Origin: a virus
Direction: 5' to 3' (one strand)
Length of the DNA stretch: 28,068 nucleotides
Virus record (IMG/VR): IMGVR_UViG_3300043431_000134
Span: 1-28,068 of that record
The notes under the pieces were generated by a model. That model worked only from the letters and a program-made list of their open reading frames with translations, made no database searches and was not told the origin of the DNA. The position numbers and the translations under genes were made by a program. This document shows, piece by piece, positions 1 through 23,463 of the stretch. Positions within the stretch are counted from its first letter, which is position 1; every line of letters begins with the position of its first letter.

Positions 1-33
1 CGCTTTCACTTACCCCTTACCTCCACGTTAGCC
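1..33 (-). other. attC-I, partial, cut by window edge
   Basis: The minus-strand box GGCTAAC (27-33) follows the methyltransferase gene and continues into GTGGAGGTAAGGGG, like the left half of the other sites. The methyltransferase stop codon lies inside it. The right half is outside the window. Confidence 0.75.
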
Positions 34-740
34 GTCAAGATGTTCCATGCCGCAGCAGCCACCGCCGGAACCTGCCCATTGCGGATGCAGTCAGTTCTGT
101 CCACTGCACGGGCCAGCCCATTACCCATTCCTCGAAGGCTGGCGTATGCGTCTTTCCAATCTCTGTTCCACGCCAAGGGTTTGAACTCCCACCCCACTCG
201 TCCAGTCTGCCCGCTACGTGGTTCTTTCCGCTCCTGCATCCGCTCGGGGTGGGTAGCGACGATCCAAAGGCGCTCCCGCTTATGTGGCGCACCAACGGCT
301 GACGCTCCGATACAACCCCATTCCGCATCGAACCCCATCGCGTCAAGGTCAGCGAGGACGGCTCCGAGTCCCCTAGTAACGAGCATTGGTGAGTTTTCGA
401 TAAAAGCATATTGCGGCTCAACCTCTCCGATGATCCTGGCCATTTCAAACCAGAGTCCACTTCGCGTTCCATTTAAACCTGCCCCTTTTCCAGCGCATGA
501 AATGTCTTGGCACGGGAAGCCTCCCGACACCACGTCAACAATTCCTCGCCACGGCCTGCCGTCAAAACTCGACACGTCAGACCATATCGGGAATGGTTCA
601 AGGCATCCATCGTTTTGCCGTTGTGCCAAAACTTGTGCGGCGTATCCGTTACGTTCAACTGCGCAAACGGTTCGCCATCCAAGGAGCCTGCTTCCCAAAA
701 TGCCCCCACCAGCGCCTGCGAAAAGAGCCAACTCATTCAT
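6..740 (-). CDS. C5 cytosine-specific DNA methyltransferase (cassette 8)
   Basis: Transfers a methyl group from S-adenosylmethionine to cytosine C5 in DNA, probably protecting phage DNA from restriction. From the upstream ATG at 755 the order is motif I FAGAGGG (about 12-18), motif IV GGFPCQDIS with the catalytic Cys (about 79), motif VI-like ENSPM (about 120), motif VIII HKRERLW (about 158) and a C-terminal RNGQVPAV element equivalent to the usual GNGQVP. About 245 residues is typical for compact phage enzymes and no motif is missing. The ATG at 740 is preferred because AGAGGT precedes it; the ATG at 755 has no visible ribosome site and lies only a few bases from the cassette boundary. The stop codon lies within the following attC. 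RNGQVP in place of GNGQVP is a small departure that might affect activity. Confidence 0.93.
   Translation of the reverse strand: MNELALFAGAGGGILGSRLLGWRTVCAVERNGYAAQVLAQRQNDGCLEPFPIWSDVSSFDGRPWRGIVDVVSGGFPCQDISCAGKGAGLNGTRSGLWFEMARIIGEVEPQYAFIENSPMLVTRGLGAVLADLDAMGFDAEWGCIGASAVGAPHKRERLWIVATHPERMQERKEPRSGQTGRVGWEFKPLAWNRDWKDAYASLRGMGNGLARAVDRTDCIRNGQVPAVAAAAWNILTANVEVRGK
35..472 (-). other. Possible overprinted ORF inside the methyltransferase gene
   Basis: A 145-codon ATG-started reading frame lies wholly inside the methyltransferase gene in another frame of the same strand. Its translation contains KTHQCSLL, RWGSMRNGV, SSLPTP and a C-terminal FEEWVMGWPVQWTEL...RFRRWLLRHG. From memory these resemble segments annotated as the C-terminal part of many phage cytosine-methyltransferase-like proteins. 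The MGWP motif and the RVDR...NGQVPAV motif of the enzyme are the same DNA read in two frames. This may mean conserved dual coding, or simply that database proteins of this type arose by frameshift. Expression is not shown. Confidence 0.2.
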
Positions 741-759
741 TTTTACCTCTGTCATAGAC

Positions 760-847
760 CGCTAACAATTCGGTCAAAAGGACAGCTACAAGCTGCGCTT
801 GTGATGCCCTCGTTTCACTCGGCTGCCTCTTACCTCAAACGTTAGAG
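760..847 (-). other. attC-H recombination site
   Basis: Minus strand: CTCTAAC at the start (841-847) and GTTAGCG at the end (760-766), 88 bp. The inner arms GGTAAGAGG and CCTTTTGACC pair except for one extra C. A central AAGCGCAGCTTG palindrome is shared with other sites. It separates the 73-aa gene from the methyltransferase cassette. Confidence 0.85.
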
Positions 848-1056
848 CGCTTCCGTATTGCCACAGCGAAGGTAGCGTTCGGATCGTCATAATCGAAAGA
901 ATCAACGGCTTCGCATGCTTTGGCGCACGATTCGCGCTCTTGCGCCGCCACGGCCTGTGCAAAATTATGCAGCCACTGCGCGCTGACGCTAATGCCATCA
1001 CTGCCTGACAATCCGCCGTCAGGAAAACAATTTTCAACCTCTTCAAAACTCAGCAT
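835..1056 (-). CDS. Hypothetical small cassette protein, 73 aa (cassette 7)
   Basis: Function unknown. The ATG at 1056 is preceded by AAAAGGATAG. The protein is short, acidic and probably cytosolic, with no membrane segment. Its central part, ERESCAKACEAV, and its ending AIRKRSNV resemble a widespread type of small phage and cassette protein (ERxxCAKxCE ... AIRxR) with no assigned role. Its last codons and TGA stop are supplied by attC-H (AAC GTT TGA), so the site and gene end overlap by 13 bases. It forms one cassette between attC-G and attC-H. Confidence 0.75.
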   Translation of the reverse strand: MLSFEEVENCFPDGGLSGSDGISVSAQWLHNFAQAVAAQERESCAKACEAVDSFDYDDPNATFAVAIRKRSNV

Positions 1057-1076
1057 TTTGCTATCCTTTTGTCTTG

Positions 1077-1160
1077 CTCTAACCCCTAGATGCAGGGGAT
1101 GGTTGGAAGCTACGTCGTTATAGGCACAGGTCTCCGCACCTCCTGATCTAAACGTTAGCC
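1077..1160 (-). other. attC-G recombination site
   Basis: Minus strand: GGCTAAC (1154-1160) to GTTAGAG (1077-1083), 84 bp. The inner arms AGATCAGGAGGT and ATCCCCTGCATCT pair with one extrahelical G. The GTTAGAG box deviates from GTTRRRY in its last base. Confidence 0.8.
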
Positions 1161-1505
1161 GCGATAAGGGCGGTCACCTTCGGCCATATAGTGAGCGTTG
1201 AATTCATGCACACGCTGCTGAGTAAAAGGCTCGTCGCCGTCGCCATCGCTACAGTCTCCGAAATACCAGACCGTCTCAACGTTCTGGCTTGCATGCAGAG
1301 CCATCAACACCGCCGCAATGCTCGGCCACGGGCCGCGCTCGTATCCCGGCCCGTAATACCGCCAGCACTGGTCAATTTCGTAATTTGCGCCTTCGCAGGA
1401 GCTTTCTTTTTCCGGCCTCAGTTCGCAGCCGACCGGCAAGCTGCCTGGTAGCTCCGGCTCTGCCCCATCAAATGTCTTCACGTAAATACAGGCATCAACA
1501 CCCAT
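1155..1505 (-). CDS. Hypothetical cassette protein, 116 aa (cassette 6)
   Basis: Function unknown. The ATG at 1505 has an AAGGAG ribosome site. The protein starts MGVDACIYVKT and carries YYGPGYERGPWPSIAAVLMALH in its middle and EPFTQQ...HYMAEGDRPYRG at the end. It is acidic and aromatic-rich, with no signal peptide or transmembrane segment. From memory it resembles a conserved hypothetical family (MGVDAxIYFKT ... YYGxGYERGPWP) seen scattered in proteobacteria. The TAA stop is the TAA of the attC-G left box GGCTAAC. One cassette between attC-F and attC-G. Confidence 0.8.
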   Translation of the reverse strand: MGVDACIYVKTFDGAEPELPGSLPVGCELRPEKESSCEGANYEIDQCWRYYGPGYERGPWPSIAAVLMALHASQNVETVWYFGDCSDGDGDEPFTQQRVHEFNAHYMAEGDRPYRG

Positions 1506-1528
1506 GTCATTCTCCTTTTGTTGCGGCT

Positions 1529-1589
1529 GGCTAACTCTTCAATCCAGCGGACCGCAGCAAGCTGCGTCCGCTGATCTCAAACGTTAGCC
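1529..1589 (-). other. attC-F recombination site, near-perfect hairpin
   Basis: Minus strand: GGCTAAC (1583-1589) to GTTAGCC (1529-1535), 61 bp, the shortest site. The arms ATCAGCGGACGCAGC and GCTGCGGTCCGCTGGAT pair throughout except for two single extrahelical bases. This is the clearest folded attC in the window. Confidence 0.92.
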
Positions 1590-1796
1590 CGCGCGGGCAG
1601 CAGCCAGCGCAACAAGAATTGCGTCCATTTCTTCCCAGCGGAACGCGCCGGCCATTCGTAGCGGCAGTTCCGGCCCGGCCCCGTGAACCATTATTGAGGC
1701 TCCCTCGTGGTTCGACCATGTATTGATCGTCACCGTCATCTTCCCGGCATCAAGAAAAATTTCTTTGCTATCGGACTTCATCGTTTCAAGTTTCAC
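1584..1796 (-). CDS. Hypothetical small cassette protein, 70 aa (cassette 5)
   Basis: Function unknown. The GTG at 1796 is chosen because AAAAGGA lies six bases upstream. The same frame also runs up to an ATG at 1823 that straddles the attC-E crossover point, which would add about nine residues. The protein starts MKLETMKSDSKEIFLD and has central TVTINTWSNHEGASIMV and an alanine-rich end. It looks like a small mixed alpha/beta cytosolic protein with no recognised domain. The stop codon comes from the attC-F left box (GGCTAAC). Confidence 0.65.
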   Translation of the reverse strand: MKLETMKSDSKEIFLDAGKMTVTINTWSNHEGASIMVHGAGPELPLRMAGAFRWEEMDAILVALAAARAG

Positions 1797-1814
1797 TATA
1801 TATCCTTTTAATAC

Positions 1815-1909
1815 GCCTAACATTGCAGTCGAGCGAATCCCCGCCTGCTGAGTTCTGTGGTTAATCGTTACCGTCGTCGTGGCGGGTCTCGCTCACTTAC
1901 ACGTTAGGG
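1815..1909 (-). other. attC-E recombination site
   Basis: Minus strand: CCCTAAC (1903-1909) to GTTAGGC (1815-1821), 95 bp. The inner arms AGTGAGCG and CGCTCGACT pair with one extrahelical C. Secondary arms CCCGCC and GGCGGG lie inside. A perfect GTTRRRY end. Confidence 0.9.
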
Positions 1910-2157
1910 GGCGGCGGCAGTGGCATCCAGTGCGTAACGTCTTCATGATCTGAGGATGGGCCTTCTCGGCTAAACCAAAGGTTGTGCTTTGCATCATAAG
2001 ACACGTCACAATTACGGGAATTAGAGTATGAGTCCCATACGTCAATTTCTGTTCCGTCTTTTGGTGCCGTACTGATTGGTTGCCAGCAACCTAACATTCC
2101 AGTCGAGCCGGACTGCCCGCAAGCTGGGTATTTTGCGTCTTGTGATTGATCGCTCAT
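1897..2157 (-). CDS. DUF551-like protein (cassette 4)
   Basis: A small protein of the DUF551 type, common in phages and of unknown function. The signature is CWQPISTAPKDGTEI near the start and THWMPLPPPP at the end. The frame opens at ATG 2157 inside attC-D with an AAAGGG ribosome site seven bases upstream, so the first 20 residues would be encoded by the recombination site. A second in-frame ATG at 2097 straddles the crossover point and gives MLGCWQPIS, closer to normal family length. Either way the start codon is supplied by the upstream attC, not by the cassette. The stop codon (AAC GTG TAA) comes from attC-E. Confidence 0.85.
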   Translation of the reverse strand: MSDQSQDAKYPACGQSGSTGMLGCWQPISTAPKDGTEIDVWDSYSNSRNCDVSYDAKHNLWFSREGPSSDHEDVTHWMPLPPPPNV

Positions 2158-2211
2158 TCTTCAACCCTTTCCTGTTCAGTGGGCGGGCATCCGCTCACTT
2201 TTACGTTATAA
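2089..2211 (-). other. attC-D recombination site (long)
   Basis: Minus strand: TTATAAC (2205-2211) to GTTAGGT (2089-2095), 123 bp, similar in length to Vibrio-type repeats. The inner arms AGTGAGCGG and CCGGCTCGACT pair with extrahelical C. The site also holds AAAGGG and an ATG that open the DUF551 reading frame. Confidence 0.82.
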
Positions 2212-2425
2212 GGTGCCGGTTACGAAGTCCGGCGCTGGCGTTACCCTCCCAGCCGCTCAAGATCAGGCCACGTCTGTCACATGGCAGCAGCACAAGCAGG
2301 CTTGGAGCCTCCGCTGTGCCATCGGTACTACGGGACGCGGTTTGCAGTAACACAGCCGCGCGATGCGTTTGCACTCGGCCAGAACATCCCAGCCCATGCT
2401 GCTGCAATCAGCGTGCAACTCATAA
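2201..2425 (-). other. Cassette 3: no convincing intact gene
   Basis: The unit between attC-C and attC-D is about 210 bp. One frame (2201-2407, starting at TTG) is open for 68 codons but has unusual composition (His/Arg/Leu-rich) and no family resemblance. Another frame gives ADCSSMGWDVLAECKRIARL and then stops. A third, shifted by one base, ends QTWPDLERLGG and stops just before the site. The two protein-like stretches in different frames suggest a small gene broken by frameshift. It could also be a non-coding cassette. Confidence 0.45.
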
Positions 2426-2490
2426 CACTACAGTCGAGGGGATTCGCTACAAGCTGCGCTTTCCGCTACCCCTCAATTACGACGTTAGCC
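2420..2490 (-). other. attC-C recombination site
   Basis: Minus strand: GGCTAAC (2484-2490) to GTTATGA (2420-2426), 71 bp. The arms TTGAGGGG and CCCCTCGA pair with one extrahelical C. A central AAGCGCAGCTTG palindrome is shared with attC-B and attC-H. Confidence 0.87.
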
Positions 2491-2491
2491 G

Positions 2492-3295
2492 TCAGTCCGC
2501 AATTTCCTGCTTTGCCATTTCGCAAAATATCCCGCACTGAATTTCAGGCTCGGTTTGGTAGTCACCAGTGCCTGGCTGCAACTCGTCAAGAAAGATTCGC
2601 GTGTCACCAGTTTTGATGATCTTCACGCCAAGCCTGCGCGATTCATAAACCATCCGGGCAAACTGATCGGGGAAGTCGTCCCTGATCTTGTTCCAATAGC
2701 CCATGCCGGAAGCCTTGCAACACCCGATGCAGTTGTTGTGCTGATAGCCCAGCTTGTACATGGACGGAAGTTCAATTCCTGCCGATTCCACTATCGCCAA
2801 GCAGTCCGGGTGTTCCAGCCCTCGGTCAATCAGCGGCGAAAAGGCGTCTATGTTGTTGGCGTCCAGAAAGCTATCCCAGCGTCCTTGCTCTTCGGCGCAG
2901 TACCCAAATACGTGTCGGTCTGTTGGCAGTTCAAACGCCCGGCGCACTTCCTTTTTAAGCAATAGCGTGCATGGCGCTCCATCGTGCCCGCTGATATATC
3001 TACGCTTGCGGAAAACCTCATAAATCGAGCCGTCGTATTTCTCTGCAATCAGGTTGGTGATCGGCACGCCAAGCCACTTTTCACAGTCGGCGGCAAATCG
3101 GTCGTTGTCCGGGTGTTCTTCGCGCACAATGCAGCGGGCCACAACCACAGGCAACCGTCCGGCGTTTTCAACAATCGCCAGCTTGGTAGCCACCGCACTT
3201 GCCGCGCCGCAGCTAAACCAGCACACAAGACGGCTAACCCGGCAGTCGAGCGGGACAGCCTCAAGCTGCGCTTTCGGTTCGTTCGTTTCACTCAT
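2492..3295 (-). CDS. PAPS-reductase-like PP-loop protein (cassette 2)
   Basis: A member of the phosphoadenosine phosphosulfate reductase superfamily (adenylate-binding PP-loop), in the phage-type subgroup with a WFSCGAASA loop (residues 26-34). Later elements are CTLLLKKEVRRAFE (about 107-120), the NNCIGCCKASGMGYW cysteine cluster (about 184-198) and QCGIFC near the end. Family members activate a substrate with ATP, but the phage enzymes have no proven substrate; roles in nucleic-acid thiolation or phosphorothioation are suggested only by kinship with DndC/TtcA. The ATG at 3295 lies inside attC-B and the first 19 residues are encoded by that site. Without them the protein would begin directly at RLVCWFSCG, where family members normally start, so the site seems to supply the start codon. 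GAGGGG lies just upstream of the ATG. Confidence 0.88.
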   Translation of the reverse strand: MSETNEPKAQLEAVPLDCRVSRLVCWFSCGAASAVATKLAIVENAGRLPVVVARCIVREEHPDNDRFAADCEKWLGVPITNLIAEKYDGSIYEVFRKRRYISGHDGAPCTLLLKKEVRRAFELPTDRHVFGYCAEEQGRWDSFLDANNIDAFSPLIDRGLEHPDCLAIVESAGIELPSMYKLGYQHNNCIGCCKASGMGYWNKIRDDFPDQFARMVYESRRLGVKIIKTGDTRIFLDELQPGTGDYQTEPEIQCGIFCEMAKQEIAD

Positions 3296-3319
3296 CTGCC
3301 CCTCACTTCTACGTTAGCC
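3232..3319 (-). other. attC-B recombination site
   Basis: Minus strand: GGCTAAC (3313-3319) to GTTAGCC (3232-3238), 88 bp. The arms AGTGAGGGGCAG and CTGTCCCGCTCGACT pair with extrahelical C. A central AAGCGCAGCTTG palindrome is present. The start codon of the PAPS-reductase-like gene is inside. Confidence 0.92.
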
Positions 3320-3523
3320 GACACGTTCAACCTCGTAGTTCGCATGGTCGCTAAATGCGATGTAGTCAATTTTTCCGTCCTCATATTGCGCAACAAACGC
3401 TGGGCGGAAATCCATTCCTTCGGGTGCGACAAAAGAGACGCCTATGATCCTGGCCCATTCACCTGAACGAAAAGAGTGGTGATTGGTTCCCCGAATCTTT
3501 GCCGCATCGGTAAGTATTCGCAC
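3314..3523 (-). CDS. Hypothetical cassette protein, 69 aa (cassette 1)
   Basis: Function unknown. The start is GTG at 3523 with AAAGGA seven bases upstream. It reads MRILTDAAKIRGTNHH, then WARIIGVSFVAPEGMDFRP and a YEDGKIDYIAFSDHANYEVE end, suggesting a small beta-barrel-like or sheet-rich soluble protein. No membrane segment. The pattern W-x-x-I-G-V...P-x-G...F-x-D-G-K-x-D-Y-I seems familiar from small phage proteins but has no assigned role. The stop TAA is part of the attC-B left box. This is the promoter-proximal cassette, the position where newly inserted cassettes normally appear. Confidence 0.75.
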   Translation of the reverse strand: MRILTDAAKIRGTNHHSFRSGEWARIIGVSFVAPEGMDFRPAFVAQYEDGKIDYIAFSDHANYEVERVG

Positions 3524-3548
3524 GTTTATCCTTTCTGCCGAGAATGTC

Positions 3549-3620
3549 GGCTAACCCTACAGTCGAGCGGGACTCGTCTTTCGCTGCGCTCATTCCTCAC
3601 CCCTCACTTCCACGTTATGC
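3549..3620 (-). other. attC-A, first site of the array, fused to a phage gene
   Basis: Minus strand: GCATAAC (3614-3620) to GTTAGCC (3549-3555), 72 bp. The arms AGTGAGGGG and CCCGCTCGACT pair with extrahelical bases. It follows a gene of the phage operon, whose TAA stop is within its left box. This is the junction between array and phage backbone. Confidence 0.9.
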
Positions 3621-3782
3621 CGCCGCCCTCTCAGCCCCTCGCCTCTGCATGTTCGCCCAGCAAGTGGCACATATCCAGCGGTAGGTTAGCCGCGAGCCTG
3701 ATACCTTCATTTGCCCGCCCGCCCGTGGTGCGTAGCCTTGATGATTGGTGCAGTAGCGCGGGTTATGTGGGGTTTGCTTCAT
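3615..3782 (-). CDS. Small cysteine-containing phage protein, 55 aa
   Basis: Not present as a separate long frame but well supported. The ATG at 3782 overlaps the upstream stop (ATGA) and the stop TAA lies in attC-A. The sequence starts MKQTPHNPRYCTNHQGY and ends with WICATCWANMQRRGAE. The Cys residues (CTNH and CATC) suggest a small zinc-ribbon-like fold, as in many phage anti-host or regulatory peptides; the function is unknown. It is the last gene of the operon from the promoter at 4282-4310 and is physically joined to the cassette array. Confidence 0.65.
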   Translation of the reverse strand: MKQTPHNPRYCTNHQGYAPRAGGQMKVSGSRLTYRWICATCWANMQRRGAERAAA

Positions 3783-3967
3783 CGCTCCGGCCTCATATCT
3801 CGCCCGTACCTGTGGGCTGGGTGTCCTGTGTAGCTCTTGCAGTCCTGCCCGTTGTCCTCTGGTAGCTGGCGCAATGGGTGCGATTTGCCATATACCAGCG
3901 GCAAGTCATCGCGTCCGGCGCAGTAGTTGAGCTTTTGTGCCCAGTGCTGGCATGTTTTGCAGGTCAT
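3779..3967 (-). CDS. Small cysteine-rich phage protein, 62 aa
   Basis: Starts at ATG 3967 (MTCKTCQHW), one base after the preceding gene's stop, and overlaps the next gene by ATGA. The frame is open further upstream to 4081 but that part lies over the preceding gene and is rejected. CKTC near the start, YCAG in the middle and DCKSYTGHP near the end suggest a metal-bound small fold of the kind found in many phage early peptides (CxxCxxW ... C ... C). The role is unknown. Confidence 0.7.
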   Translation of the reverse strand: MTCKTCQHWAQKLNYCAGRDDLPLVYGKSHPLRQLPEDNGQDCKSYTGHPAHRYGRDMRPER

Positions 3968-3968
3968 G

Positions 3969-4253
3969 TCACACCACTTTGCGAATTGATGGGAACGGGA
4001 ATGGCGCCCAGCCAAAACCATCAGGACTACCGCCCCACGACTCGGCGTCATCTGGCACCAACAGATAGTCGTCACACTCACCCGTCACGATAGGGCAGCA
4101 CAGCACGCTTTTGAGTGAGTCAGCGCGGCACTTGGCCTCTTGCTCGGGCAAGTCCTTGAAGTCGATGATGTCAATCTGCAGATCGTTCTCGGAGCCATTG
4201 ACTAGAAAGATGTTGTATAGGCCGGTGTGGTTCTTGGCGATTACGATTTTCAT
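3969..4253 (-). CDS. Hypothetical phage protein, 94 aa
   Basis: First gene of the leftward operon ending in the cassette array. The ATG at 4253 follows GGGGTAAGTG; a GTG one codon earlier is possible. It begins MKIVIAKNHTGLYNIFLVNG, with a central DIIDFKDLPEQEAKCRADSL and a Trp/Gly/Phe-rich end WGGSPDGFGWAPFPFP. It appears soluble and acidic, with no recognised domain. The leader is short, about 20 bases from the predicted transcription start. Confidence 0.7.
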   Translation of the reverse strand: MKIVIAKNHTGLYNIFLVNGSENDLQIDIIDFKDLPEQEAKCRADSLKSVLCCPIVTGECDDYLLVPDDAESWGGSPDGFGWAPFPFPSIRKVV

Positions 4254-4281
4254 CACTTACCCCTGTTTGTTTGCGTAAGTC

Positions 4282-4313: not shown

Positions 4314-4751
4314 TTATCTTGCGGCCGTTAGCGTCTTCTTAAATCGCGACAACATCGCCTTGGTTTCCTCGCTCATCTTCGTCGGCGCGGCCTTGGCTTG
4401 CTCCTGCTGTGCCTGCATGGTCTGGCGCTTCTCGATCTGCCGTTCCCGCCATTGCCTGGACTGCTCGCCAAGCTTGATGAACTTGTCGATATTGCCGCTG
4501 CGGAAGATCACGTCTAGCCCGTCATGGTCGCGCCTGCCTTCCCACGGGTCAGAGGCGACGCCTTCGATTGCTATCTGCAAGTCTTCCAGCTCGTAGCCAA
4601 TTTCAAACTGTGTGACGAGGATGCGGAACTTGACGGCATCCATGCGGGATCGTGGATGGTCTAGCACGTCGCGCCAATAGTCGAAGACTTGCTCAACTAG
4701 CGGACGGTAGATGTCGTCGTTGATGCCGATTTGGTGTGATTTGCGGGCCAT
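4314..4751 (-). CDS. Phage replication protein / helicase-loader-like, 145 aa
   Basis: The pattern VFDYWRDVLDHPRSRMDAVKFRILVTQFEIGYELEDLQIAIEG, then DVIFRSGNIDKFIKLGEQ, matches a helical domain found in the C-terminal part of phage replication proteins that load the DnaB-type helicase (the host-range region of lambda O / DnaT-like proteins). Here it stands alone, followed by a Gln/Glu-rich coiled tail (about 105-145). The start ATG 4751 lies one base after the upstream stop. It probably acts on phage DNA in the cytoplasm. The family match is from memory of the motif. Confidence 0.6.
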   Translation of the reverse strand: MARKSHQIGINDDIYRPLVEQVFDYWRDVLDHPRSRMDAVKFRILVTQFEIGYELEDLQIAIEGVASDPWEGRRDHDGLDVIFRSGNIDKFIKLGEQSRQWRERQIEKRQTMQAQQEQAKAAPTKMSEETKAMLSRFKKTLTAAR

Positions 4752-4752
4752 G

Positions 4753-5766
4753 TCATGCTCCTAGTGTGTCAGCAAAAATTCCCCACTTAGACCTGCGTCT
4801 TTTCATCAGGTCTTCGTACTTCTTGTAAGCACTGGTCTTCGTTGGGCTGAAGCCAAGATACTTGCACCAGTAATCGTTCTTCAGAATCGTTTTGCAGACC
4901 CTTCGCCAGCTCGGAGCCTTGCCGGTGTTTTCTATCTTTAGAGGCACTTCGTCTGGAATTCCTTCAGGGTATCCCCTGCTTTTCCACCAGTTGATATACA
5001 CAGCAATCTTGTTCTTGTAATGCTCTGCTGTCTTTGGCGGTGAGCTTCCAAGAAGGCTCTTTGCGAATGACTCCCATGTGTGGCCTTCAGGCAATGAAAT
5101 GGTGTGATTGCCCATCACATTACCCCTTGAGTTTGCATAGACCTTTCCGGTATTTGCACCATTCACGCGAAGCAGTATTTTCGCCCACGTCAGCGGCTCA
5201 ACTACTTGATACAGCCATAGACCTTTGCGCGACTCGTCCCCCATTGGCTCGCAGATTCTCATCTGATGAATGGTCATGCCAGCCTGATGCATGCGGTCAT
5301 AGAGCTTGTTGTAGGACTTTCCTGTCTTGCCGTGGAACGTCCAAATATCTTCAGTCTTCCAGTCATAGATCGGATACACATTCCACACGTTTTCAACTAC
5401 GTTTGTTGTGTGCCTCTTGCCTTCAAAGGCTGGCTTGTCGCGTGAGATAGCGCGAAACCTGTTCAGTGACTCTTGCGCTCTGATTCCGACAAAGCAGCCG
5501 CACAGCCCGCCTTCTGCGTACCACTGCGCAAACGTAGGTACAAACTCTTCAAACATGATTCCGTCATACCAGAACGGGAACGCTTCGCCGTCCTTGATAG
5601 ACACGTCGGACTTTTCCCTGACCCACAGATTGCGCTTACTCTCTTCCCATGCCGTCCATTCTGGCTCGCACCAGCGATGAGAAAGCCCCACGAAGCCGCT
5701 TTGAGGCAAACAACAACGTGAGTAATCCAAGCGGCAACAAACCAAGCCACAATCGCGAGGCCACAA
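4753..5766 (-). pseudogene. DUF3440/PAPS-reductase-like protein lacking its PP-loop half
   Basis: From EPEWTAWEE onward (about residue 35) this matches the C-terminal two-thirds of YbdN-type proteins (PAPS reductase domain plus DUF3440): FVGIRAQESLNRFRAI, VYPIYDWKTEDIWTF, QMRICEPMGDESRKGL and a lysine-rich tail. Family members normally have about 110 further N-terminal residues with an SGGKDS loop, absent here. The first 30 codons are the shifted frame of a membrane-protein gene (see 5463-5804), so the 5' end is a fusion joint near 5665-5685 and the nominal start is a TTG with no ribosome site. It could still be translated from an internal Met, but ATP binding should be lost. Confidence 0.7.
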
Positions 5767-10890: not shown

Positions 10891-11748
10891 TTACGCCACA
10901 CGGATCATGACCACAGACCCATTCCTGTAAAACTGCCCGAGCACCACACCGCCCGCTGCTGCTGCTGCATCGTTTGCATAACTCGTACTTGTGTGCAGTT
11001 GTGTTGCAATTATTGCGCTTGCGTTCAGAGTCAAAACGCCCAGCACAATGATTGACACACCAGAGATCGATGTAATTGACACCGCGTCGCTGGTACTTAC
11101 CGTCACGGCGCCAGAAAATGTCGCGGTATCGCTCACTGCCAACTCGCCATTTACGGCTAGCGTTCCTGTAACACTAGGGTTCGCAAAAACTTCGCCGCTT
11201 GTGTAAGCAATTGTCCCACTCTTGTCCTGAATCGTTACCGTGCGATCTGCGGTCGGATCAGTGATAGCAAGTGATGTTTCGTAGGCGTTACTTGTGGCGC
11301 CTTCAAACGAAAGCGGAATAGCGCCAGTCAGGACAGATCCGCTAAGATCAACCGGCCCGGCAATGGGGAAGTAGAGAGCATCCGCTGCGGCTTTGGTAAG
11401 GAAGTTGCCGCTTACGTTATCCACAGTGCGCAGCGTAACGTCTGCTGAAGTCTTTTCAATCAGCTTGTAATCGTCCAGACCATACCAGAACGTCGCCTCA
11501 CCATTGGCGTTCATGATTACCGGATTGGTGGCAGGAGTGGTCAGCCCGCCATCGGTATAGACCGGGAGAGGGGTAGTCGTACCGGCTTCGTAGGTGTAGA
11601 GCTTCGCGCCTGAGAGCGGGCTTCCGCTGCTATCAACGATGCGATATACGCAGCCGGTTGCAATGATTCCTTGTGCCATGATGTTATGCCTTTTCTTCCG
11701 GCTGAATATTGAACGCAGCCAATTGGTGAATTTCTTCCAAGCGGTCAT
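10891..11748 (-). CDS. Putative tail fibre/appendage protein, 285 aa
   Basis: The pattern IIATGCVYRIVDSSGSPLSGAKLYTYEAGTTTPLPVYTDGGLTTPATNPVIMNANGEATFWY is a well-known N-terminal domain of podovirus tail fibres and appendages. It is followed by Thr/Ser/Ala-rich repeats (TGTLAVNGELAVSDTATFSGAV) that suggest a beta-helical shaft, and a C-terminal YRNGSVVMIRVA. Presumably binds a host receptor. Two starts are possible. ATG 11748 overlaps the upstream stop but adds a cationic, Trp-rich 23-residue leader (MTAWKKFTNWLRSIFSRKK). ATG 11679 (MAQGIIATG) has AAAAGG upstream and fits the family better. Confidence 0.8.
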   Translation of the reverse strand: MTAWKKFTNWLRSIFSRKKRHNIMAQGIIATGCVYRIVDSSGSPLSGAKLYTYEAGTTTPLPVYTDGGLTTPATNPVIMNANGEATFWYGLDDYKLIEKTSADVTLRTVDNVSGNFLTKAAADALYFPIAGPVDLSGSVLTGAIPLSFEGATSNAYETSLAITDPTADRTVTIQDKSGTIAYTSGEVFANPSVTGTLAVNGELAVSDTATFSGAVTVSTSDAVSITSISGVSIIVLGVLTLNASAIIATQLHTSTSYANDAAAAAGGVVLGQFYRNGSVVMIRVA

Positions 11749-12071
11749 TCCTTTGACCAGCTCTTGCGAATCATCTCTGTGAGTATGTCGAATCGCTTAT
11801 CGATTCGGTCTGACAGTCCGCCTATCTCTTGGCGCAGATCACGCACGCTCTGTTCGTGTCTTGCGTTCAGCTCGACAATCGTTCGATCGTGCTTGTCGCG
11901 TAAGTCCTTGATGGCCTCTTTGTAAGCGGCGTCCGCCTTCTCAACGTCGCGGACGTGCTCCATAAATGCCTGCGCTGACGCTTTTTCGTCTATTCGCTGA
12001 TTTGTCATTTTCCACACCACGCCCACAAGGATCATGACTACTGATGCCGGGGCGATCGATTCCCATCCCAT
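11745..12071 (-). CDS. Membrane-anchored coiled-coil protein, 108 aa
   Basis: ATG 12071 is chosen (MGWESIAPASVVMILVGVVW) because a single N-terminal transmembrane helix begins there. A longer frame to 12203 would cover most of the preceding gene. After the helix come charged heptads (ASAQAFMEHVRDVEKADAAYKEAIKDL...) predicted as a long coiled coil up to the end (KSWSKE). The layout resembles small phage membrane proteins near lysis or tail genes, including inner-membrane spanins, but no outer-membrane partner is visible. Confidence 0.65.
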   Translation of the reverse strand: MGWESIAPASVVMILVGVVWKMTNQRIDEKASAQAFMEHVRDVEKADAAYKEAIKDLRDKHDRTIVELNARHEQSVRDLRQEIGGLSDRIDKRFDILTEMIRKSWSKE

Positions 12072-12433
12072 TTTGTACCTCTTCTTGTTATTGCCGAAAT
12101 AATTAGCAGCGACTCCAGAAGCTGCACAATGATTGTGTAAGGGTCGGGATGGATGCCGACAGGGATAATGGTTGCGCCGGCCATGTGCGCCATGCAAAGG
12201 CATGTGGCGACAATGCCGACGTGTCGGCTACCTGGCGAATTGATGACGAAAGAGATTAGGCCCACTCCCATCTCTACACAGAACAGAATCCAGTACCACG
12301 ACTCCGGGCTGCGGTTCGGATCAATCGGCCAGAACACCGACATAGCCACTACGGCAAGCAATAGCAGCTCCTTCTGCGCTCTTACCTGAGTCAGCGCAAA
12401 CAGAAATACCGCCATTGCGTACCAGTTGGTCAT
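12038..12433 (-). CDS. Multi-pass membrane protein, 131 aa
   Basis: ATG 12433 overlaps the upstream small ORF stop (ATGA). Four hydrophobic stretches are visible: YAMAVFLFALTQV, LLLLAVVAMSVFW, WYWILFCVEMGVGLISFV and GIVATCLCMAHMAGATIIPV, with a basic end (RRGTKWDGNRSPRHQ). Probably an inner-membrane phage protein; a holin-like or exclusion role is possible but unproven. Overlaps the following gene by 34 bases. Confidence 0.65.
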   Translation of the reverse strand: MTNWYAMAVFLFALTQVRAQKELLLLAVVAMSVFWPIDPNRSPESWYWILFCVEMGVGLISFVINSPGSRHVGIVATCLCMAHMAGATIIPVGIHPDPYTIIVQLLESLLIISAITRRGTKWDGNRSPRHQ

Positions 12434-12498
12434 TTGGATGGCTTTGGTCGCGGCTGTGGCTTGTTGGGTGTCTTGGGTCTGTTTCCGTTGCCTGCCAT
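12430..12498 (-). CDS. Possible tiny Pro/Lys-rich peptide, 22 aa
   Basis: ATG 12498 with AAAGGAAA upstream; reads MAGNGNRPKTPNKPQ, ends PRPKPSK and overlaps the next gene by ATGA. Very short but has a good ribosome site and coupling; similar tiny Pro-rich peptides occur in phage genomes. Could act mainly as a translation leader for the membrane protein. Confidence 0.45.
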   Translation of the reverse strand: MAGNGNRPKTPNKPQPRPKPSK

Positions 12499-12583
12499 GA
12501 TGTTTCCTTTCTGTGTATTATGAGGTATGACGATTATTCTATATGCTTTGGCGCACTCTATTGGCATTATTGCCTATTCGATA

Positions 12584-22823: not shown

Positions 22824-23423
22824 TTAAACCTGTTTCAACTTAAGACCTTTGTTCCATGGAACTCGGCCAATTTGTCTTTTGCTAATCGCGGCCCTTTGCT
22901 CTTCAGTAAGAGCATAGCTACCGTTTGCAATTCTTGTCGCCCGCACCTTTTCGGCGATCAACTTATCCTCACCCGTCAGCCTTCTTTGTTCCCAAGTTTT
23001 ACGGCGCGCTTCCGCCATATTTAGTCTTGCTTGCTCAGAAAACTTTCTAGGCGCTCTGTTTCTTCCGGCTTCGGCAATATTTTTTCGCTCTTGCTCGGAC
23101 TTGACTCTTCCTTTTTGAGCCTGCGCATAACGCTTTCTCAACCATCCAAACAGCTTGTTTTTTGATCTTCCTTTGTTTGACTGATTTTTGTTTCCTGCTG
23201 TCATGGCCTGAACTGAGTAGGCCAATCCTTTGTTTTCTGGGTAAATCTTTACTAGCAATTGGTGCGCTACAAAATGCTCTTCAGCAGTTAGCTGCACCAA
23301 GTTTTCTGCCTCATCACTACCGCCTAGGCATTTTGGGAATACGTGATGAACTTCCACATACCCGCCAAGAACGCGATTTTTTGCGCGATCAATAAGCCTA
23401 TCGTAATGTGCTTTGTAATCCAT
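22824..23423 (-). CDS. Free-standing HNH homing endonuclease with NUMOD3-type repeats, 199 aa
   Basis: The HNH nuclease domain is visible at about residues 20-55: GGYVEVHHVFPKCLGGSDEAENLVQLTAEEHFVAHQLL (the two His and the Asn). It is followed by repeated DNA-binding NUMOD3-like motifs: AQKGRVKSEQERKNIAEAGRNR, RKFSEQARLNMAEARRK and LTEEQRAAISKRQIGRVPWNKG. Such enzymes cut an allele lacking them and spread by repair. ATG 23423 is chosen for GGAGAG upstream; a GTG at 23435 is in frame. It is inserted between the capsid and decoration genes, and its base use is more AT-rich than its neighbours, consistent with recent arrival. Confidence 0.87.
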   Translation of the reverse strand: MDYKAHYDRLIDRAKNRVLGGYVEVHHVFPKCLGGSDEAENLVQLTAEEHFVAHQLLVKIYPENKGLAYSVQAMTAGNKNQSNKGRSKNKLFGWLRKRYAQAQKGRVKSEQERKNIAEAGRNRAPRKFSEQARLNMAEARRKTWEQRRLTGEDKLIAEKVRATRIANGSYALTEEQRAAISKRQIGRVPWNKGLKLKQV

Positions 23424-23431
23424 TTCACTCT

Positions 23432-23463
23432 CCACGCTATAAGGTAAATAAATTATAGCGTGG
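23432..23463 (-). promoter_or_regulatory. Perfect hairpin abutting the HNH ribosome site
   Basis: An 11-bp perfect stem (CCACGCTATAA / TTATAGCGTGG) with a 10-base loop lies between the capsid stop and the HNH start. On the minus strand the 3' arm ends at GTGG and the ribosome site GGAGAG begins within it. It may limit translation of the nuclease from the late transcript or terminate weakly; no U-run follows. Confidence 0.6.

Follow-up and report, generated by a model that had tools for sequence, protein, structure and literature searches.

Integrons are a main known bacterial device for collecting and shuffling genes, including resistance genes. Integron cassettes are already known from phages: among 10,705 phage genomes, Qi et al. 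2023 (PMC9892861) identified 17 clusters of attC sites lacking integron-integrases (CALINs) together with 3 complete integrons, and they showed that 5 of 6 phage attC sites tested recombined with IntI1. The complete integrons of temperate phages (Vibrio phage Va_90-11-286_p16, a P1 isolate and Shewanella M16-3) have been described as fragments derived from host or class 1 integrons. The literature searched, mostly without subscription papers, yielded no further account devoted to integron arrays of phages. Here we describe a cassette array at positions 1-3782 of the IMG/VR virus record IMGVR_UViG_3300043431_000134, a sequence of 28,068 bases with linear ends that was analyzed in full and is referred to below as the window. 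Like the phage CALINs of Qi et al. 2023, which include that of phage MW202573, the window fragment has an attC cluster without an integrase inside a tailed-phage genome, and it has methyltransferase cassettes; the statement in the original prediction that it knew of no established description of such an array as a normal part of a phage genome does not hold, since such arrays have been described. The difference lies in the inverted polarity of the genes, and the available portion of PMC9892861 does not report systematic gene inversion relative to attC, a viral integrase clade or phage-phage cassette exchange.

The attC sites were located with two covariance models. A DNA pattern taken from the window sites retrieved 48 stretches from a bacterial genome collection, nearly all from Betaproteobacteria or Gammaproteobacteria of freshwater, soil and sludge. 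Model R1, built from the eight folded and aligned candidate sites of the window, gave 100 attC sites on those bacterial loci, and model R2 was built from these 100 and contains none of the sites of the window. R2 finds eight complete attC sites within 759-3621 (26-60 bits, E values of 1e-4 to 1e-12), the runner-up match anywhere in the 28 kb being 11 bits, which bears out the proposal that the repeats are attC sites. Eight full sites in a single orientation within 2.9 kb form a closely spaced attC cluster as in a CALIN. The sites are as follows, the strand given being that of canonical polarity.

13-34, +, half attC with the R' box CACGTTAGCC and one arm, cut by the contig end (R2 6.4 bits)
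759-848, +, attC (R2 39.3 bits, match on the - strand)
1076-1161, +, attC, the weakest (R2 26.4 bits)
1528-1590, +, attC (R2 48.3 bits)
1814-1910, +, attC (R2 48.9 bits)
2088-2212, +, attC, the longest at 125 bp (R2 42.1 bits)
2419-2491, +, attC (R2 35.9 bits)
3231-3320, +, attC, the best (R2 60.2 bits)
3548-3621, +, attC, the outermost (R2 54.2 bits)

The motifs TAACGT and GTTA are invariant in all eight complete sites, which have paired R''/R' boxes with a GTTRRRY-type core and, in the R2 alignments, paired L''/L' arms with an extrahelical base and unpaired spacers. Across these sites 75% of cells pair in register, as against 33-48% after a slide of one to three columns. Covariation counts for the eight sites were not clearly above those of column shuffles, and the case for pairing therefore rests on the slide control and on R2. 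A cruder, rule-based scan returned 4 matches in the window versus 0.21 per shuffled window, and Rfam at its gathering threshold gave no match in the window. The eight complete sites and the half site, which suggests that the array continues past the contig end, delimit seven genes and one gene-poor interval. The predicted one gene per interval is true of seven of the eight, the exception being 2213-2418. The predicted location, 1-3620, was right but too short, since the gene at 3615-3782 ends in the outermost attC and takes the array to approximately 3782; R2 detected no attC in the window beyond that gene.

In the canonical integron, genes and sites share a polarity; here the sites are canonical on the + strand and the array genes are all on the - strand. 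At bacterial loci with intI, the genes are divergent from intI and each runs to its attC, R2 matching the strand opposite the genes, while in the window the R2 match strand is the gene strand. The + strand of the window also resembles published Vibrio and class 1 sites read in the direction of their genes. The original prediction had correctly placed the boxes at the 3' ends of genes and had overlooked that the canonical polarity of the sites is opposite to that of the genes. The sedentary integrons found on chromosomes of Beta- and Gammaproteobacteria (among them Gallionella, Rhodoferax and Methylobacter) have the same attC family, recognized by the same covariance model, but differ in that their genes are canonical relative to attC, their intI is divergent from the genes and their cargo is richer in defense and toxin-antitoxin genes.

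To score polarity across loci, the longest open reading frame (ORF) stopping at either end of each site was taken and its strand compared with that of the attC profile; the score is not biased by stop codons, because the site ends are near-palindromic and have TAA at both. Among 95 scorable sites of bacterial loci, 87 were canonical and 8 inverted, versus 31 canonical and 92 inverted among 123 sites of viral contigs from which known duplicates had been removed (Fisher p = 2e-24, a value that treats sites as independent, which they are not quite). By locus, the canonical to inverted ratio was 42:0 for bacterial and 9:41 for viral loci, and a second bacterial set, anchored on intI, was canonical by 15 loci to 2. 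The inverted-strand viral ORFs gave Pfam matches to N6_N4_Mtase (seven), a C5 methyltransferase (one), Mom, Tad3 (a Thoeris inhibitor), 3'-phosphoadenosine-5'-phosphosulfate (PAPS) reductase and DUF551. Of the 31 viral ORFs on the canonical strand, by contrast, a single one had a match, to helix-turn-helix; the bacterial canonical ORFs matched TIR, AbiJ, AbiV, HicA, NYN and others. These matches confirm the coding strand, and by the families found in each set host arrays lean to defense and phage arrays to counter-defense.

No integron integrase lies in the 28-kb window, and the contig stops on the side where its viral relatives keep intI; the claim that the array is without an integrase of its own is accordingly good for this fragment only. 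Some attC-bearing viral contigs encode a full integron integrase, that of contig G004 scoring 450 bits against a cut-off of 265. An alignment of five integrases retrieved 111 IMG/VR relatives, and 80 of them were retained. In viral contigs with intI, 87 of 88 attC sites are on the 5' side of intI and in canonical relation to it, whereas the genes run inverted at 20 loci and canonically at 5; arrays of inverted cassettes are present beside intI in at least 20 viral contigs. A reversed intI in these contigs was considered and dropped: the bacterial loci showed that the relation of intI to attC is the usual one and that the genes are the inverted part. The three contigs checked all had intI followed by a phage integrase (phrog_1). 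Like the temperate-phage integrons introduced above, these viral contigs have intI and an attC array in one genome, but inverted cassettes and, where checked, an intI followed by a phage integrase set them apart from those integrons as described.

In a tree of these integrases, all 16 distinct enzymes with inverted arrays fall in one all-viral group of 50 rows (support 97/95), and 21 other viral rows group with bacterial integrases. The tree, with a midpoint root only, included 33 bacterial integrases (30 loci from Burkholderiales genomes and 3 others) and left out those of loci L177 and L207, each of which translates with a stop. We lean, by a modest margin of belief, toward the broader view that phages of freshwater Proteobacteria carry an integron lineage of their own, with a viral integrase clade beside a phage integrase, inverted arrays and a counter-defense pool exchanged among phages apart from bacterial integrons; the array of the window would then have been cut off before its integrase or would use those of others. 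Contig G004 itself (L332, IMGVR_UViG_3300044629_000509) encodes within 57-4254 a terminase, the complete integron integrase and a second tyrosine recombinase of phage type, with cassettes at both contig ends, and is a candidate phage-encoded complete integron.

The predicted gain and loss of whole cassettes at attC boundaries was found among viral contigs. Two of them (L272 and L287), both with genes for phage DNA polymerase, primase and Sak4, are 95-97% identical and differ by whole cassettes ending in attC sites, including two different methyltransferases at one spot. Between otherwise unrelated viral contigs, 31 of the 104 ends of shared blocks fall at attC, where random local shifts predict 13.3, and none of 2000 such shifts reached 31. 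At the sensitivity used and in this small sample, viral loci had no cassette in common with bacterial ones, the only shared stretches matching integrase genes or an SSB-like region. The host integrases that the original prediction named as shuffling the cassettes are one option among others, at least 20 viral contigs having intI beside inverted-cassette arrays. As an individual case, L217 (1132-1845) and L250 (2009-2721) share a whole cassette that is 87% identical over 715 bases and starts at an attC box; the two contigs are otherwise unrelated, one bearing intI and the other a terminase. In L272 (4400-7700) and L287 (6400-9300), which come from the same metagenome, the differing DNA methyltransferase genes have similar ends and the same position in the array.

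The window is from a P22-like tailed phage, in keeping with the original prediction of an element embedded in a tailed-phage genome, and its attC cluster, like the phage-borne cassettes of Qi et al. 2023, is inside a phage genome. It encodes Erf, an exonuclease, SSB, a major head protein and a P22-type head closure protein Hc3 (E 1.5e-102); no terminase or portal gene was recognized within the fragment. Judged by Hc3, its nearest annotated relatives are P22-like phages from lake and spring water and of Rhodoferax, at 36-40% identity. Phage MW202573, one of those of Qi et al., has an Hc3 40% identical to that of the window, among the closest in the phage collection and part of a related P22-like module, and R2 recovers four attC sites from it. 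Beyond the gene at 3615-3782 follow three genes co-directional with the array: a small one, one resembling a replication initiation gene and the DUF3440 gene. The window thus reads from replication genes to the array to the contig end, and lysis and capsid genes on the same strand stand at its other end. Contig G002 (36,236 bases) is complete and circular, because its ends overlap by 127 bases; it shares the DUF3440 gene at approximately 80%, and its attC sites fall at 4.8-5.4 kb, with ninG on one side and the terminase-portal-scaffold-capsid genes on the other, apart from one further attC elsewhere. No integron integrase was found in G002. If the genome of the window phage is circularly permuted, the position of its array fits that in G002. 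In another viral contig (G001), the attC array begins 0.2 kb downstream of the DUF3440 gene.

On this evidence we propose, with a probability of roughly three in four, that the stretch 1-3782 belongs to an integron cassette array of phage type that closes the early/replication operon, with inverted genes that are expressed from the phage operon and are mobile by integrase. The sequence itself shows the sites, their polarity, the inverted genes, the phage context and the sharing of cassettes at attC boundaries among viral contigs. A cassette consists of one short gene and one attC, the gene being inverted relative to the canonical polarity of the site. A phage operon transcribed on the - strand would probably read all genes of the array, and an integron promoter would then not be needed; stop codons, and some of the start codons, come from the attC boxes. 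Excision and insertion of whole cassettes would be the work of an integron integrase acting on the folded, single-stranded site. This enzyme may be that of the phage, as in viral contigs where intI is at the 3' end of the array beside a phage integrase, or that of the host; an intI belonging to the array of the window, if present, would lie left of position 1, outside the contig. The cargo would serve mostly counter-defense and DNA modification, with methyltransferases, Mom and Tad3 in relatives and Dcm and PAPS/SspD-like genes here. A cassette that crossed from a phage array into a bacterial integron, or in the other direction, would be antisense there, and this would keep the two pools separate. 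The inverted cassettes suggest a gene-swapping system adapted to phages. One speculative idea for why the sites face this way is that the recombining strand is placed on the lagging-strand template of the phage fork.

An ordinary CALIN, that is, a piece of host chromosomal integron taken up by a phage, with no special polarity and no phage-specific system, is a rival account: phage CALINs with methyltransferase cassettes are described in PMC9892861, donors are common (integron integrases occur in 109 of 300 sampled Burkholderiales genomes) and the attC family of the window is the host one. In hosts, however, genes with that same attC family run the opposite way in 42 of 42 decided loci, from which the window and 41 of 50 viral loci differ, the cargo of viral arrays differs from that of host arrays, and several cassettes are common among viral loci but none between viral and bacterial loci; we consider this origin improbable. 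Less probable again is a fossil array, in which attC sites are no longer recombined and merely provide a phage operon with hairpins between genes that contain start and stop signals. The boxes do double as stop and start codons, the contig is without an integrase and one site is degenerate (26 bits), but the sites of the window retain matched boxes, the extrahelical base and the spacers, and whole cassettes with attC ends are exchanged between the arrays of other viral contigs.

We give very little credence to an assembly chimera of a phage contig and an integron fragment at approximately 3620, one of the outcomes that the original prediction had named as refuting it. The array is at the contig end and the contig breaks off inside an attC, but a chimera is unlikely because complete, circular G002 has an attC cluster at the matching place and the G001 array follows the same DUF3440 gene; the cassette genes are moreover partly of phage type and co-directional with the flanking operon, and GC content is similar on either side of the junction. 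Against a phage-type, mobile array weigh several other points. Seventeen attC sites in viral intI contigs score canonical, and gene orientation outside the window is a matter of ORF length, with Pfam matches for a minority only. Most of the evidence comes from metagenomic IMG/VR contigs, and one terminase family, phrog_2, was detected in no more than 3 of 24 contigs with intI and 7 of 20 with attC, so that phage status is firm for some only. No close relative of the window phage covers the array, gain and loss being seen in other viral contigs and not here. If phages do run mirrored integrons, they could swap counter-defense genes cassette by cassette, and the separation of phage and bacterial cassette pools would be explained by the mirrored orientation. 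The strand of genes relative to attC polarity is a signature that can be scanned for in any collection, which makes phage use of integron recombination testable.

The genes of the array, with the gene-poor interval, are as follows.

6-755, -, cassette gene 1, orphan C5-cytosine DNA methyltransferase of Dcm type (PF00145 E 1.9e-31; phrog_363 E 4.7e-62)
835-1056, -, cassette gene 2, 73 aa, function not assigned, 36% identity with a stretch of phage DSL-LC05 in translation
1155-1505, -, cassette gene 3, 116 aa, stop TAA within the box GGCTAAC
1584-1823, -, cassette gene 4, 79 aa, ATG in the neighboring attC (AATGTTAGGC) and stop in GGCTAAC
1897-2157, -, cassette gene 5, DUF551 family, phage-type (PF04448 E 7.9e-6; phrog_924 E 1.1e-7), 40% identical to a stretch of DSL-LC05
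2213-2418, no strand, interval without a convincing gene, with an ORF of approximately 30 codons only, judged by eye
2492-3295, -, cassette gene 7, PAPS-reductase-like (SspD/DndC-like; phrog_424 E 1.2e-41; PADLOC SspD E 1.4e-7)
3314-3523, -, cassette gene 8, 69 aa, function not assigned, stop TAA in the box GGCTAAC
3615-3782, -, zinc-ribbon-like gene, 55 codons, stop inside the outermost attC

Most of these genes stop inside or at the edge of the box GGCTAAC or a variant of it; the frame of gene 5 runs through its attC, and that of gene 7 crosses the attC at 3231-3320, which is the source of an ATG after GAGGGG. A sigma-70 scan of the gene strand found no promoter-like match within the array, which is weak evidence. 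The Dcm, PAPS-like and DUF551 genes and gene 2 have phage relatives, whereas searches of 349 Burkholderiales genomes, of plasmids and of phages found no relative of gene 3. Homologs of gene 7 in viral contigs are up to 83% identical and mostly have no attC match alongside (80 loci by model search, 15 by eye). We considered whether the PAPS-like cassette is cut exactly at the start codon, the R' box reading GTTAGCC where some homologs have ATGAGCC, but ATG stands there in 17 of 79 homologs, and only the weaker statement is kept, that the R' box falls at the start of the gene. A circular phage contig (L026/G008, 144-bp end overlap) repeats this arrangement of the window at 11706-12540, where an attC directly precedes a PAPS-reductase-like gene of 37% identity.

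Two of the phage genes flanking the array were annotated.

4314-4751, -, like the C-terminal part of a replication initiation protein (phrog_16167 E 1.8e-6)
4753-5766, -, DUF3440/PAPS-reductase-like, with identities of up to 83% to other viral contigs, attC sites being present in several of these

No close relatives of the gene at 4314-4751 were found, and a search with the head-closure gene gave one 7.3-kb contig only. The DUF3440/PAPS-reductase-like gene (loci L002-L081) is widespread among small environmental phages, where it is well conserved, and is near attC in several. At 22824-23435, beside the major capsid gene, an ORF resembles by eye an HNH homing endonuclease.

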